Source of the DNA: Natranaerofaba carboxydovora
GTDB taxonomy: Bacteria; Bacillota; Natranaerobiia; Natranaerobiales; Natranaerofabaceae
Direction of reading: 5' to 3'
DNA: 64,000 nucleotides
Assembly: GCF_022539405.1 (NCBI RefSeq)
Contig: NZ_CP054394.1
Span: 1,056,501-1,120,500 of the forward strand
How positions within the stretch are numbered: position 1 is the stretch's first letter; every line of letters begins with the position of its first letter. A model generated the notes under the pieces. That model did not search any database. It worked only from the letters and a program-made list of their open reading frames with translations, and was not told the DNA's origin. Below, in pieces: positions 20,549 to 61,598 of this stretch. Made by a program: the position numbers and the translations under genes.

Positions 20549-20631
20549 AAAAGTTGGAAAAATTCAATCTTATCAAGTTATTTTTTAATAATTATTAACT
20601 ATTAACTAACAAATACAAGGAGGGATTTTTG

Positions 20632-22299
20632 TTGACAAAGGAGATTGAAGATAGGTTTGAGCAGTGGAAGTCCACAACACTTAAAAAAGTGTTGGACAAA
20701 TTTCCAGAGAGAAAAGAAGAATTTGAGACCCCTTCTGGAATCTCGGTAGATTCATTATATCTCCCAATAGGTGATAACCAGGTAGATTATGTTAATGATC
20801 TTGGATTTCCAGGAGAATTTCCTTATACCAGGGGTATTCAGCCGACTATGTATAGAGGACGTTTATGGACTATGCGTCAGTATGCTGGGTTTGCATCAGC
20901 AGAGGAAACAAACAAAAGATTTAGATATTTGTTAGAACAGGGTCAAACAGGACTAAGTGTTGCATTTGACCTGCCAACCCAGATAGGTTTTGATTCTGAT
21001 CATGCCATGGCAAAAAGTGAAGTTGGAAAAGTAGGAGTTGCAATAGATTCTATAGAAGATATGGAAAGGCTTTTGTATCAGATACCGCTAGACAAAGTTA
21101 GTACATCTATGACGATAAACTCCCCCGCAGCGGTTCTCTTGGCAATGTATATTGCAGTTGCTGAGAAGCAGGGTGTGTCTCCTGACAAACTTAGGGGGAC
21201 TATCCAAAATGATATTTTAAAGGAATATGTAGCCCGCGGAACTTATATCTTTCCCCCGGAAGAATCAATGCGTCTCATAACAGACGTTATAGAATACTGC
21301 AGTCAGGAAGTTCCTAACTGGAATACGATAAGTATTAGTGGCTATCACATTCGTGAAGCAGGGAGTACTGCTATTCAAGAAATAGCTTTTACTCTTGCTA
21401 ATGGACTAGAGTATGTTAAAGCAGCTATTGACAGTGGTTTAGAAGTTGATAAGTTTGCTCCAAGGTTGTCTTTCTTCTTTAATTCACACTTGGACTTTAT
21501 TGAAGAGATTGCGAAGTTTAGAGCTGCAAGAAGGCTTTGGGCCAAATTGATGAAAGAACGCTTTGGTGCCGAAGATGAAAGAAGCTTGAGACTTAGATTC
21601 CATACTCAGACTGCAGGATGTACGCTAACTGCTCAGCAGCCAAATAACAATATTGTAAGAGTTGCTATGCAGGCTTTAGCTGCAGTACTTGGTGGGACTC
21701 AGTCGCTACACACTAACTCAAGAGATGAAGCTCTATCACTGCCTACAGAAGAATCTGTACAGATAGCTCTTAGAACCCAACAGATAATTGCCCACGAAAG
21801 TGGAGTGACAGATACCCCAGATCCATTTGGTGGAAGCTATTATCTAGAGTCCTTAACTGATAAGCTAGAAGATGAAGCTGTGAAATTAATAAATAAAATA
21901 GATGAACTCGGTGGAGTGCCACAGGCTATAGAAAAAGGTTTTATTCAGAAGGAAATCCAAGATAGCTCGTTCAAATGGCAAAAAGCAGTAGAAGAGAAAG
22001 AAAGGGTTATAGTTGGAGTAAATGAATATCAAACCGAAGAAGAGGAGAAAGATTTAGATACTCTTGAGGTCGATCAGGAAGTATCCAATAGACAAGAAAA
22101 GCATCTAAAAGAGCTTAGAGAAAAGCGTGATAATGACAAAGTGAATACTTCCCTTGAAAAATTAAAAGAAGCTGCAAAAGGTGAAGATAACCTTATGCCT
22201 TATATTAAGGATGCAGTTAAGTCTTATGCTACCTTAGGAGAAATATGTGGTACATTAAGAGAAGTATTTGGAGAGTATGAAGCAGATAGCTACATTTAA
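20632..22299 (+). CDS. methylmalonyl-CoA mutase, large (catalytic) subunit
   Basis: Catalytic TIM-barrel part of the B12-dependent mutase that interconverts succinyl-CoA and (R)-methylmalonyl-CoA. The residues that mark methylmalonyl-CoA mutases are present: the Tyr of WTMRQYAGF and the Arg of [16 protein letters not shown]; related isobutyryl-CoA mutases have Phe and Gln at these places. The active-site His is in SGYHIREAG. The 555 residues lack the cobalamin domain, which is the next gene. Two adjacent TTG codons (20629 and 20632) follow AAGGAGGG; the second has the better spacing. Confidence 0.94.
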
Positions 22300-22320: not shown

Positions 22321-22707
22321 ATGGAGCCAATTCGTGTGGTAGTAGCAAAGCCTGGCTTAGATGGGCATGATAGAGGTGCCAAATTTATAGCCAGGGCTTT
22401 AAGGGATGCAGGAATGGAAGTTATATATACAGGCCTTAGACAAACTCCGGAGCAAATTGTAACTGTAACTTTGCAGGAAGATGCTAGAGTGGTATGTCTT
22501 AGCTGCTTATCCGGAGCTCATAATGATCTATTCCCGGAAGTTGTTAAATTACTAAAAGAAAAAGGTGCAGATGATGTGTTAGTACTTGGTGGTGGTATAA
22601 TTCCTGAAAAAGACATTCCTCACCTAAAAGAACAGGGAATTGCTGAGATATTTACACCGGGTGCGACAAGTGAAGAAATTATTAAATTTATAGAGTCAAA
22701 AGCATAA
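22321..22707 (+). CDS. methylmalonyl-CoA mutase, cobalamin-binding subunit
   Basis: The B12-binding half of the mutase as a separate 128-residue protein. The base-off/His-on motif DxHxxG is in [11 protein letters not shown], followed by SCLSGAH and the glycine-rich LVLGGGI. An in-frame stop at 22315 fixes the ATG at 22321, which has AAAGGGGG about 11 bases upstream. It is cotranscribed with the large subunit 21 bases upstream. Confidence 0.94.
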
Positions 22708-22777: not shown

Positions 22778-23182
22778 ATGGTAGAAAAGGTAGATCACAT
22801 AGGTGTGGCAGTTAATAATATCGATGATGCACTTAAGTTTTACACTGAGAATTTGGGTATGGAATGTAAAGATGTAGAAGAAGTTCCACAGCAAAAGGTT
22901 AAAGTTGCTTTTTTGCCAGTAGGTGAAAGCAAAATAGAACTTTTGGAACCTTCTTCAGATGAAAGTCCTGTTAAAAAGTTTTTAGACAAAAAAGGAGAAG
23001 GGGTTCATCATATTGCCCTACATGTTGATAATATCGAAAAAAAGCTTGAAGAATTAAAGAATAAAGGTGTAAAATTGATTGATGAAGAACCAAGAGATGG
23101 GGCTCATGGGGCAAAGATAGCTTTTATCCATCCAAAAAGTACTGGAGGTACACTTGTAGAATTATGTCAAAAGCGAAATTAA
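22778..23182 (+). CDS. mce: methylmalonyl-CoA epimerase
   Basis: Converts (R)- to (S)-methylmalonyl-CoA, linking mutase and decarboxylase. It is a 134-residue vicinal-oxygen-chelate fold protein. Metal ligands are seen in VDHIGVAV (His), GVHHIALHV (His) and the C-terminal TLVELCQ (Glu). The start has AAAGGAGG. The 70 bases upstream hold an AT-rich stretch with a TATAAT-like sequence and no terminator, so it is probably part of the mutase transcript. Confidence 0.94.
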   Translation: MVEKVDHIGVAVNNIDDALKFYTENLGMECKDVEEVPQQKVKVAFLPVGESKIELLEPSSDESPVKKFLDKKGEGVHHIALHVDNIEKKLEELKNKGVKLIDEEPRDGAHGAKIAFIHPKSTGGTLVELCQKRN

Positions 23183-23209: not shown

Positions 23210-24769
23210 ATGACTTCAGAAGAATCAAATAAGAGCTTGGACGTACTCCATCAAGAAAAAGAAAAACTTCGTGAAGGAGGCGGCCAAAAAAGAATTGCAA
23301 AACAACATGAAAAAGGAAAAAAGACAGCAAGAGAACGTCTTGAAGCCCTCTTAGACAAGGACAGTTTTGTAGAGCTTAATTTATTTGTCAAGCATAGACA
23401 TACTGACTTTGGTTTGGATAAAACTGAAGCACCTGGAGAGGGTGTTGTTACAGGCTATGGGACAATTGAAGGGCGACTTGTGTATGTATATGCTCAGGAC
23501 TTTACCGTATTAGGTGGAGCCCTTGGTGAGATGCATTCATACAAAATTTGTAGAGTAATGGATCTTGCAAGAAAATCAGGTGCTCCTATGATAGGACTTA
23601 ATGATTCTGGTGGTGCAAGAATACAAGAGGGTGTAGATGCTCTTAGTGGATATGGTGAGATCTTTTATAGGAACACCATTAGCTCGGGCGTTATACCTCA
23701 AATATCCGCTATAATGGGGCCATGCGCAGGTGGAGCCGTTTATTCGCCAGCCCTTACAGACTTTGTATTTATGGTTAGAGAAAGCAGTCAGATGTTTATT
23801 ACAGGTCCTCAGGTTATAAAAACCGTTACAGGTGAGGAGATAACCTTTGAGGAGCTTGGAGGAGCAGATACCCACAATACAACCAGTGGAGTTGGCCATT
23901 TTGCTTGTGATAGTGACCAAGAATGTCTTGACAAAATTAAAGAATTGCTGAAATTTTTACCTTCTAATAACAAAGAAGATCCTCCAAGAATAGAACCAAC
24001 CGACGATCCAAACAGAAAAGAACCTGACCTAGATCAAATTGTACCAATTAATCCAAATAAACCATACGATGTTAGGGACGTAATCGAAAGGATTGTTGAC
24101 GACAAGTATTTCTTTGAAGTGCAGGAAGCCTATGCAAAAAATATGGTAGTAGGATTTGCGTATCTTAATGGAAAACCTATTGGAATAATTGCAAACCAGG
24201 CTGCACATCTTGCAGGTTGTCTTGATATTAATGCATCAGACAAAGCTTCAAGGTTTATACGTTTTTGTGACAGTTTCAATATACCTATTTTGAGCTTTGT
24301 AGATGTTCCTGGATATCTGCCTGGTACCAATCAAGAGTATGGAGGTATAATTAGACATGGTGCCAAGCTGCTGTATGCTTATTCAGAGGCAACAGTACCC
24401 AAATTAACAGTAATCCTAAGAAAAGCTTATGGAGGAGCTTATGTTGCCATGTGCTCAAAATCCCTTGGAGCTGACATGTCATTTGCCTGGCCTACAGCTG
24501 AGATTGCAGTTATGGGGCCAGAAGGTGCTGCTAATATAATCTTTAAGAAAGATATAGAAAATGCTGAAGACAAACAACAAGCGAGAGAAGATAAAATACA
24601 AGATTATAGAAATCAGATTGCTAATCCTTATGTGGCAGCTTCAAGAGGTATGGTAGAAGATATTATTGATCCAAAAGAAAGTAGACCAAGACTGATTTAT
24701 GCTCTTGAAGCCATGCTTACTAAGAGTGAAGGTAGACCTTCTAAAAAACATGGCAATATACCAGTTTAG
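23210..24769 (+). CDS. mmdA: methylmalonyl-CoA decarboxylase alpha (carboxyltransferase) subunit
   Basis: Moves the carboxyl group from (S)-methylmalonyl-CoA to the biotin of the carrier subunit, giving propionyl-CoA. The 519-residue acyl-CoA carboxyltransferase has both crotonase-like halves: GLNDSGGARIQEGVDAL and MGPCAGGAVYSPALTDF in the first, and VDVPGYLPGTNQEYGGIIRHGAK and RKAYGGAYVAM in the second. No biotin carboxylase gene is nearby, while membrane beta and gamma subunits are, so a Na+-pumping decarboxylase is meant rather than an ATP-using propionyl-CoA carboxylase. Confidence 0.95.
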   Translation: MTSEESNKSLDVLHQEKEKLREGGGQKRIAKQHEKGKKTARERLEALLDKDSFVELNLFVKHRHTDFGLDKTEAPGEGVVTGYGTIEGRLVYVYAQDFTVLGGALGEMHSYKICRVMDLARKSGAPMIGLNDSGGARIQEGVDALSGYGEIFYRNTISSGVIPQISAIMGPCAGGAVYSPALTDFVFMVRESSQMFITGPQVIKTVTGEEITFEELGGADTHNTTSGVGHFACDSDQECLDKIKELLKFLPSNNKEDPPRIEPTDDPNRKEPDLDQIVPINPNKPYDVRDVIERIVDDKYFFEVQEAYAKNMVVGFAYLNGKPIGIIANQAAHLAGCLDINASDKASRFIRFCDSFNIPILSFVDVPGYLPGTNQEYGGIIRHGAKLLYAYSEATVPKLTVILRKAYGGAYVAMCSKSLGADMSFAWPTAEIAVMGPEGAANIIFKKDIENAEDKQQAREDKIQDYRNQIANPYVAASRGMVEDIIDPKESRPRLIYALEAMLTKSEGRPSKKHGNIPV

Positions 24770-24789: not shown

Positions 24790-25263
24790 ATGAGTGAAGA
24801 AGTATTATCTGGATTGCAGGTTACAGCACTTGGTTTTGCTATAGTAATAATTGCACTATTTTTGCTTTACTTAATTATTGTGGGGCTTAGCAGGTTTTTA
24901 AATCCAGAGGCTACTGGGGCTGGTTCTAGCCAAGTACCGACGGTAAAAGCTAACCAAACTAACAAGGAAGCTACAGTCCAAAAACATGACACTAAAATCA
25001 GCAAAGAAGAGAACAAACAAGAAACTAAAGATGAGACTTATGATGTAACTGGTGGTGAAGAAACAATTAATAATAAAGAAGATGAATGCTTAGATTATAC
25101 TACTATTGCTGCTATATCTGCATCAATAAGCATGATGCTAGGTACTAGTGAAGGTGGTTTTAGAATTAGAAGTATAAAACCGATAAAACGAAATGATGAA
25201 CTATCATTTTGGACAATATCTGGTAGAGAAAATTTGATGAAACCCCATCACGATATTAATTAA
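24790..25263 (+). CDS. methylmalonyl-CoA decarboxylase OadG-type membrane subunit
   Basis: Small subunit with one N-terminal membrane helix (about residues 10-36: VTALGFAIVIIALFLLYLII) and a soluble tail, the OadG/MmdD layout that holds the decarboxylase together. The linker is charged, and the C-terminal block (about 105-157: YTTIAAISASISMMLG and FRIRSIKPI) resembles the C-terminal parts of such subunits. The length is 157 residues. It sits between the alpha subunit and the biotin carrier, as in other mmd operons. Confidence 0.85.
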   Translation: MSEEVLSGLQVTALGFAIVIIALFLLYLIIVGLSRFLNPEATGAGSSQVPTVKANQTNKEATVQKHDTKISKEENKQETKDETYDVTGGEETINNKEDECLDYTTIAAISASISMMLGTSEGGFRIRSIKPIKRNDELSFWTISGRENLMKPHHDIN

Positions 25264-25280
25264 GGAAAGGGGAGAAAGAA

Positions 25281-25698
25281 ATGAAAAAAATTTCGTGTTA
25301 GCGTTGAAGGAAAAACTTATGAAGTTGAAGTAGAAGAGATAGGAGAGGAAACTACCTCTACCCCACCTCCCCCATCTCAGCAGGAATCAAAACCTGAACC
25401 TAAGCCAAAGCAAGAACAGCCTAAAGCACCACCAAAACCTGAGAAAAAAGAAGAACCTGCCAAAAAGCCAGCTGCGTCGGGAGGAGGAAATAGTGTAAAT
25501 GCTCCGATGCCTGGAACTGTTCTAGATATTAAGGTTAGTGAAGGAGATCAAATCCAGGCAGGTCAGGTTGTTTTAGTGTTAGAAGCTATGAAAATGGAAA
25601 ATGAGATCAAAGCCTCCGGGGAAGGAACCGTTAAGGAAATTCTAGTGAGAAAACAAGATAGTGTTGATTCAGGTGATCCTCTGATCGTCTTAGAATAG
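25281..25698 (+). CDS. mmdC: biotin carrier subunit of the decarboxylase, frame broken in A7 near start
   Basis: Carries carboxybiotin from the alpha to the beta subunit. The biotinyl domain (about residues 70-138) has the acceptor lysine in EAMKME (K104). A Pro/Lys-rich flexible linker precedes it. The only start with a binding site (GGGGAGAAAG) is ATG 25281, but reading from it gives a stop after six codons. The real frame begins right after a run of seven A residues (25284-25290); with six A residues it reads [15 protein letters not shown], a normal start for this family, and gives 138 residues. The later in-frame ATG (25507) would remove the linker and has no binding site. Sequencing error, mutation or slippage are possible. 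Confidence 0.85.
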
Positions 25699-25709
25699 GG
25701 GGCAGATAT

Positions 25710-26846
25710 ATGATTGTAATGTGGGATAAAGTTCTAAGTTTTTTTGCATCAACAGGATTTACGGAACTTGATTTGCCAAGGTTGATAATGATATTTATAT
25801 CTCTTATATTGCTATATTTGGCAATTTATAAAAAATATGAGCCATTATTACTAGTTCCTATTAGCTTTGGTATGTTACTTATTAACCTTCCCCTGGGTGA
25901 ATTAATGGGTTCACCAACAAATGGTGAGCCAGGTGGGTTGCTTTGGTATCTATACCAGCCTGTAGCATGGGGAGTGTATCCACCACTAATCTTTTTGGGA
26001 GTGGGAGCTCTTACTGACTTTGGCCCACTTATAGCAAACCCTAAGACCTTTCTGTTGGGTGCAGCAGCTCAGTTTGGTATTTTTGCTACCTTGATAGGAG
26101 CTTTGTTTTTAGGGTTTTCCCCGGCAGAGGCTGGCTCTATAGGAATCATAGGTGGTGCGGACGGGCCTACAAGTATATTTTTGACAAGTCAACTAGCACC
26201 CGAACTGCTTGGACCGGTGGCGATAGCTGCTTATTCTTACATGGCTCTTGTACCGGTGATTCAGCCACCGATAATGAAGTTATTTACTAATGAGTCAGAG
26301 AGAAAAATTGTAATGGAGCAGTTAAGGCCCGTTTCTAAGAAAGAAAGAGTGGCATTCCCTATAACTGTTACGATTTTGGTAGGACTTTTGATCCCGACTT
26401 CTCTTCCTTTGATAGGAATGTTAATGCTTGGTAATTTATTTAGGGAATGTGGAGTAACCGATAGATTAAGTAAGGCAGCTCAAAACGAAATAAATAATAT
26501 AGTAGTTATATTTTTAGGAGTAACTGTAGGAGCAACTGCTGATGCTGCAAGCTTTTTGCAGCTTGATACTATAATGATCATAGTACTTGGATTAGGCGCA
26601 TTTGCTGTCGGAACAGCTGTTGGGGTTTTACTTGGTAAGCTAATGTGTAAACTTACAGGTGGCAAAATAAATCCACTTATTGGTTCTGCAGGAGTCTCAG
26701 CAGTGCCTATGGCAGCCAGAGTTTCTCAAGCAGTTGGTCAAGAAGAAAACCCACAAAACTTCTTATTAATGCATGCTATGGGTCCAAACGTAGCTGGAGT
26801 TATAGGTTCTGCTGTAGCAGCAGGAATACTGCTTGCTATGCTGTAG
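25710..26846 (+). CDS. mmdB: Na+-translocating decarboxylase beta subunit
   Basis: Integral membrane subunit that decarboxylates carboxybiotin and exports Na+. It is 378 residues with about ten hydrophobic segments. The family signature [13 protein letters not shown], whose Asp is required for Na+ transport in OadB, is complete, as is the [12 protein letters not shown] region. A second Asn/Gly motif is seen near [24 protein letters not shown] precedes the ATG. It is the last gene of the operon, and a terminator follows about 60 bases later. Confidence 0.95.
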
Positions 26847-61257: not shown

Positions 61258-61266
61258 AGTGAAGAC

Positions 61267-61598
61267 ATGACAGATGGTGCTGATGGTAATAAAAATAAAC
61301 TACGAGCAATTACTTTAGATGATGAATATGTGTCATTACAACAGTTTGAATATTTAACAAATGACATAAAAGAGCTTGAGATAATTAATACATTTACAGA
61401 TCCCCAAAAAGCACTAGAATATATGATGGCTAATTCTGAAAAGATTGATATTGCTTTTCTTGATATTGAGATGCCTGCAATGAATGGTTTGACTATAACG
61501 AGAGGGAATTAAATAATCCAATAGTAAAAGTAAATGATGAAGTAATAGATCTCTCATTAGAAAAAGATATCCAGCTAGTTGATGTATTAGCATTTTAG
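61267..61598 (+). pseudogene. response regulator remnant
   Basis: The first 77 or so residues are a receiver domain with acidic D18/D19 and phosphoacceptor D66 in FLDIEMPAMNG, then the frame ends at 61512. From about 61496 another frame continues (NERELNNPIVKVNDEVIDLS...LVDVLAF, stop at 61596-61598) and looks like the C-terminal piece of a response regulator with a DNA-binding or activator domain. The second half of the receiver (Thr and Lys positions) is missing. It looks like an internal deletion combined with a frame change, so the protein should be inactive. Confidence 0.65.

Follow-up and report, generated by a model that had tools for sequence, protein, structure and literature searches.

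Methylmalonyl-CoA decarboxylase (MMD) is a Na+ pump, and its class and two-step mechanism are described in PMC8473912. The DNA analysed here, referred to as the window, is a 64,000-nucleotide stretch of the Natranaerofaba carboxydovora genome. On its forward strand lies an operon which shares with the Na+-translocating MMD of the Veillonella/Propionigenium type both the subunit set and the order MmdA, OadG-like protein, biotin carrier and OadB. The genes for the methylmalonyl-CoA mutase large chain (20629-22299; TIGR00641, 828.4 bits, over cut-off), the mutase B12-binding chain (22321-22707; TIGR00640, 165.1 bits, over cut-off) and methylmalonyl-CoA epimerase (22778-23182; TIGR03081, 179.1 bits, over cut-off) come first, upstream of the MMD genes, and the gene order of the operon recurs in G001 and G002, both members of the same taxonomic order. 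These are followed by an MmdA-like carboxyltransferase subunit (23210-24769; PF01039, 687.4 bits; TIGR01117, 898.5 bits, below the cut-off of 998.8), an OadG-like small membrane subunit (24790-25263; PF04277, 37.9 bits, cut-off 27; TIGR01195, 23 bits, below cut-off), the biotin carrier, and an OadB-like Na+-pump decarboxylase beta subunit (25710-26846; TIGR01109, 504 bits, cut-off 190.6). With respect to the gamma subunit, a biotinyl domain with the motif EAMKM is common to the described enzymes and to this locus. In contrast to the described enzymes, MmdA scores too low for the curated threshold of TIGR01117 and the carrier too low for that of NF047903 (the carrier scoring 87.5 bits against 200 for the latter), and in this record the carrier is one base off frame at its start codon. 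We take the carrier gene to encode the biotin subunit of a Na+-pump-type MMD operon.

The start codon of the carrier gene (ATG, 25281-25283) has a purine-rich ribosome-binding stretch upstream and is followed by a run of seven A residues (25284-25290), after which comes TTTCGTGTTAG. As recorded, the carrier cannot be read from this start codon, and the ATG-started frame (25281-25301, plus strand) reads MKKISC and then stops, a frame of six codons. The carrier frame itself (25291-25698, plus strand) comprises 135 codons without a second break and a TAG stop codon at 25696-25698. It encodes a linker rich in proline and lysine, then a C-terminal biotinyl domain with EAMKM around the lysine (PF00364, E 2.5e-21, 75.7 bits, cut-off 22.1). 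Directly upstream of 25291 there is an in-frame TGA at 25282, and no ATG, GTG or TTG occurs in the frame before 25507; up to 25510 the only start-like codons in frame are ATA at 25339 and ATG at 25507, the latter within the biotinyl domain. The 408-nt stretch stayed open in 6 of 20,000 mononucleotide shuffles, and the open carrier frame is more than chance. A shift of -1 leads into a frame with a stop after 16 codons, so only the net loss of one base, or the gain of two, opens the gene. With six A residues in place of seven, the ATG joins the carrier frame and a protein of 138 residues results. The preliminary description had placed a frame break at the A7 run next to the ATG, had stated that removal of one A restores a 138-residue biotin carrier in an otherwise intact operon, and had named polymerase slippage, a +1 ribosomal shift and a homopolymer sequencing error as candidate causes. 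The break and its repair were borne out by the reading of the frames, the flanking genes were open with no sign of decay, and the list of causes was the right one. The whole-genome record also carries A7, although this is the same record as the window and not an independent read.

Homologous loci were then compared. The carrier was matched in 59 of 61 genomes, the 60 relatives including two of the same order and none of the same family or genus. A scan of viral contigs confirmed no viral relatives. A set of 109 loci was picked by similarity: 29 are from the 61-genome search, and the other 80 are the best of 470 found in a wider search. Some of these loci share a genome or belong to genomes that are almost identical, and severely damaged homologues may be under-represented. 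Start codon and biotinylation motif were found in one open frame in all 109. The in-frame start lay at most 10 codons from the aligned N-terminus in 107, and for L106 and L108 the nearest start used was more than 10 codons above the aligned stretch. The motif was MKM in 106 loci and LKM or LKL in three (L023, L027 and L028). G001, the nearest same-order genome, reads GTG-A6-TTTCGTGT (full read GTGAAAAAATTTCGTGT), that is, the same bases with six A residues, and G002 reads ATG-AAGAAG-TTTCG with no A run (full read ATGAAGAAGTTTCG). Seven A residues near the start occur in three loci (L031, L062 and L095), and all three are in frame. The frame break with a complete protein behind it is thus absent from every relative read; as far as these 109 loci go the break is peculiar to this record, and a conserved site for slippage or frameshifting appears to be lacking among them. 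The preliminary description had named six A residues in all close relatives as a result that would refute it. G001 has six and G002 has no run, which comes near to that result without reaching it in full, the 60 relatives searched all lying outside the genus and family.

To lose the carrier should be very costly, judging from the gene content of the genome. PF00364 matched at six places, and MKM is present in the carrier only. A second biotin carrier acting as backup was considered and rejected, the other five places having no MKM and reading, by sequence, as two GcvH-like and three HlyD/RND-adaptor-like proteins. The genome encodes a biotin ligase that scores over its cut-off, and MmdA is the only PF01039 protein in the genome at E <= 0.001. 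No accC was found in the genome, where the best match scored 64.7 bits (cut-off 626.5); we take this match, in a 1,087-aa frame, for carbamoyl-phosphate synthase. A type II fatty-acid synthesis (FASII) cluster is nevertheless kept at G000:C1:906001-922000 (L163:4735-11045; G000 denotes the present genome), whose genes read as plsX, fabH, fabK, fabD, fabG, acpP and fabF, of which fabD and fabF exceed curated cut-offs and fabK was called by position and a nitronate-monooxygenase-type domain. With biotin ligase and FASII retained, neither accC nor a second PF01039 protein found, and no other biotinyl carrier to stand in, a true null should be very costly, and the carrier would probably be essential to the cell. 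The cost ascribed to an inactive carrier in the preliminary description holds more strongly than was claimed there, this carrier being the only one found in the genome.

Taken with these observations, the seventh A is probably an error in the recorded consensus, which would give the homopolymer one base too many, and we infer that the record carries a base which the cell's own DNA lacks. The cell's gene would then have six A residues and yield a 138-residue product, an ordinary MMD-type carrier in an otherwise open operon, which would shuttle CO2 on biotin between the MmdA carboxyltransferase and the OadB membrane Na+ pump. This reading is favoured by the intact frames of all 109 loci together with the A6 of G001 and the missing run of G002, by the lack of a second break in the carrier frame, by the open flanking genes and by the expected cost of a null. 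It is also favoured by two published statements: unclustered frameshifts confirmed by BLASTp are expected to be sequencing errors and not genuine indels (Antonov et al., PMC3711429), and the commonest residual errors of assemblies made from long reads only are homopolymer-length errors (PMC8812927).

Against an error in the record stands its general state, which does not look laden with errors of this kind. In a 464-kb sample (about 14% of the genome), made up of the window and 20 stretches of 20 kb, 251 A7, 40 A8 and 2 A9 runs were counted in the sense strand within ORFs of 100 aa or more, these ORFs being open by construction. A genome-wide search for the pattern GG-N8-ATG-A7, which requires GG at a fixed distance and catches only part of all ATG-A7 starts, returned 14 sites; ten read as intact starts, one is the carrier and three read as no starts. 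Among the 11 sites with A7 or A8 that read as true starts, only the carrier gene is broken. L156, which would give 132 codons from an A8 run with one more base, was considered as a second gene broken likewise and rejected, lying inside an open frame read as hslU, and L152 and L160 were likewise read as no starts.

The same 464 kb were audited for frame breaks with a home-made coding HMM of unknown sensitivity, which reported 72 frame events; seven at fragment ends were dropped and 65 examined. Seven of the 65 were flagged for lack of a nearby start and one more was viewed by eye, and of these eight, two read as ordinary gene junctions (L128 and L136). The remaining six were the carrier, a RecB/AddA-like gene, a Maf-like gene, a P-type ATPase, a sigma-factor fragment and a response-regulator fragment. 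The RecB/AddA-like gene (L126:92-3732, minus strand) is in two frames with a nearly continuous profile (TIGR00609 positions 7-625, then 635-1076). The gene with the Maf-like N-terminal piece (PF20157; L135:4218-7240, minus strand) passes into another frame where A5 runs occur, and its second piece had no NCBIfam or Pfam family match at the thresholds used. The heavy-metal P-type ATPase remnant (L126:19029-19998, minus strand; TIGR01525 positions 40-178, then 378-560) changes frame at a gap where about 200 central profile positions are missing. A sigma-70 region-4 fragment without a proper start (L131:10768-11037, minus strand) lies behind an A7-ATG stretch, and at 61258-61595 of the window a truncated response-regulator receiver domain runs into an unrelated short frame and is probably a gene remnant. 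A genome full of homopolymer errors was not seen in this audit. The RecB-like and Maf-like breaks, the other apparent single-base breaks in the sample, are not on runs of six or more, and together with the genes damaged otherwise they argue against an error in the record, real decay evidently occurring. Overall, the finding of a few damaged genes of mixed kind with no obvious load of homopolymer errors is neutral between residual error and real mutation.

A real and recent slip mutation in the sequenced stock, either fixed or carried by the majority of a mixed A6/A7 population, would switch the carrier off, in principle reversibly. The other damaged genes in the 464-kb sample fit such an event, and in PMC2831843 A runs of 3-7 are given as over-represented in prokaryotic genes, preferentially at 5' ends, and the Listeria inlA change from A7 to A6 as having arisen at least twice. 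The mutation would, however, have struck the only carrier found in a genome which keeps biotin ligase and FASII, none of the 109 other loci is broken, and the rest of the operon bears no sign of decay. We therefore regard a slip mutation in the stock as unlikely.

Alternatively, the A7 run could be real and the product rescued, with RNA polymerase dropping one A in some transcripts or the ribosome shifting by +1, in which case the site would set the amount of carrier. The locus does resemble genes with programmed slippage on A or T runs and phase-variable genes with a 5' homopolymer, in that an A run lies right behind the start codon and the gene is one base off frame; it differs from them in having no run conserved in relatives and in encoding a housekeeping enzyme subunit. 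Beyond the run the protein is preserved in full and, reading the sequence, the lysine codon AAA in the P site can pair anew one base further on in the A7. Poly(A) transcript slippage is mentioned for Buchnera genes in PMC2831843. The runs screened for functional slippage by Baranov et al. (PMC1088944) were A9/T9, longer than the run found here. No conserved slippery run was detected, given the reads of G001 and G002 and the in-frame A7 loci, nor a conserved +1 shift site, with 0 of 109 loci out of frame, and the RNA fold of 25240-25400 was unremarkable (z -1.43, equalled or bettered by 16 of 200 shuffles). Elsewhere in the genome, open frames run straight through A7 and A8 runs. No locus of the 109, which come from other genera, was in a phase-variable OFF state. 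Rescue of a real A7 is accordingly improbable, and the earlier proposal that slippage sets the amount of carrier found no support in the 109 unbroken loci, the two same-order genomes or the 251 in-ORF A7 runs. Finally, use of a shortened carrier from an internal start at ATA 25339 or ATG 25507 is very improbable: both codons are in the carrier frame, but ATA is a very weak start codon, ATG 25507 is residue 73 whereas the biotinyl domain, as matched by Pfam, starts at residue 68, so that the fold would be cut, and the N-terminal stretch of the MKKF...YEVEVEE type, present at most loci listed, would be lost. A homopolymer-length error in the recorded consensus is the reading we favour.

The absence of accC was also surveyed across the 61 genomes using a threshold of E <= 1e-60. 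Thirteen were without accC (G000, G004, G011, G019, G022, G031, G036, G037, G038, G039, G046, G057 and G059), and fabD was present in all of these except G037, giving 12 of 61 genomes with fabD and no accC. An MmdA-type carboxyltransferase was found in 11 of these 12, so that 11 of the 61 genomes, the present one included, combine fabD and an MmdA-like protein without accC. In 11 of the 12 other accC-lacking genomes (not G019) a protein is 62-72% identical to the MmdA of G000 over at least 510 aligned positions. The AccD-type matches of G001 and G002, by comparison, share 23-24% identity with MmdA and lie in frames of 592 and 971 aa, and no such match was seen in the other 12 accC-lacking genomes, G036 excepted. 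In G036 a frame of 629 aa encodes a protein with 23% identity, and there is a partial one besides; this genome has five PF01039 matches, and its carrier match is interrupted by an internal TAG. G019 has fabD and is without accC, a PF01039 protein or a carrier match. An MMD-type carrier at E <= 1e-20 was present in 11 of 13 accC-lacking genomes versus 15 of 48 others (one-sided Fisher test, 0.00075). In four of the 48 (G007, G024, G025 and G027) the only accC match is in a frame of 1,155 to 1,160 aa, about as long as pyruvate carboxylase; with these four counted as accC-lacking, the carrier is in 15 of 17 versus 11 of 44 (p 9e-6). Both tests ignore phylogeny, and the threshold and the regrouping were chosen after seeing the data. 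Within 1.5 kb of the carrier in ten accC-lacking relatives, MmdA and OadB were both present in six, MmdA alone in G031 and G038, and OadB alone in G011 and G057.

Fatty-acid synthesis in G000 apparently proceeds without the usual acetyl-CoA carboxylase. To some extent, malonyl- or acetyl-CoA is also accepted by MMD and by the transcarboxylase related to it. We tentatively suggest that the MMD complex may be the cell's source of malonyl-CoA, carboxylating acetyl-CoA in place of an ATP-driven acetyl-CoA carboxylase. MMD might run backwards on the Na+ gradient to form malonyl-CoA from acetyl-CoA, or a carboxyl group might be passed from methylmalonyl-CoA to acetyl-CoA, the mutase and epimerase being encoded in the same operon. 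What makes this a testable proposal is that 12 of 61 genomes have fabD and no accC and that an MmdA-like carboxyltransferase is present in 11 of them. Against it, MMD is also common in accC-bearing genomes, and G019 has fabD with neither accC nor a PF01039 protein; either that draft is incomplete or another route exists. A literature search covering titles and the beginnings of abstracts, with most subscription journals outside it, returned no paper on fatty-acid synthesis via MMD replacing acetyl-CoA carboxylase. The bolder form of the proposal, in which slippage at the A7 run would gate fatty-acid synthesis, we consider very unlikely.

An annotation made from this record would drop the one biotin acceptor that was found for this organism, and with a real A7 run the whole of the cell's biotin chemistry would depend on the rescue of one subunit. 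The side result on accC and MmdA outweighs the extra A in importance. A FASII cluster without a detectable acetyl-CoA carboxylase poses a testable question as to the source of malonyl-CoA, for which the Na+-type decarboxylase is the leading candidate.
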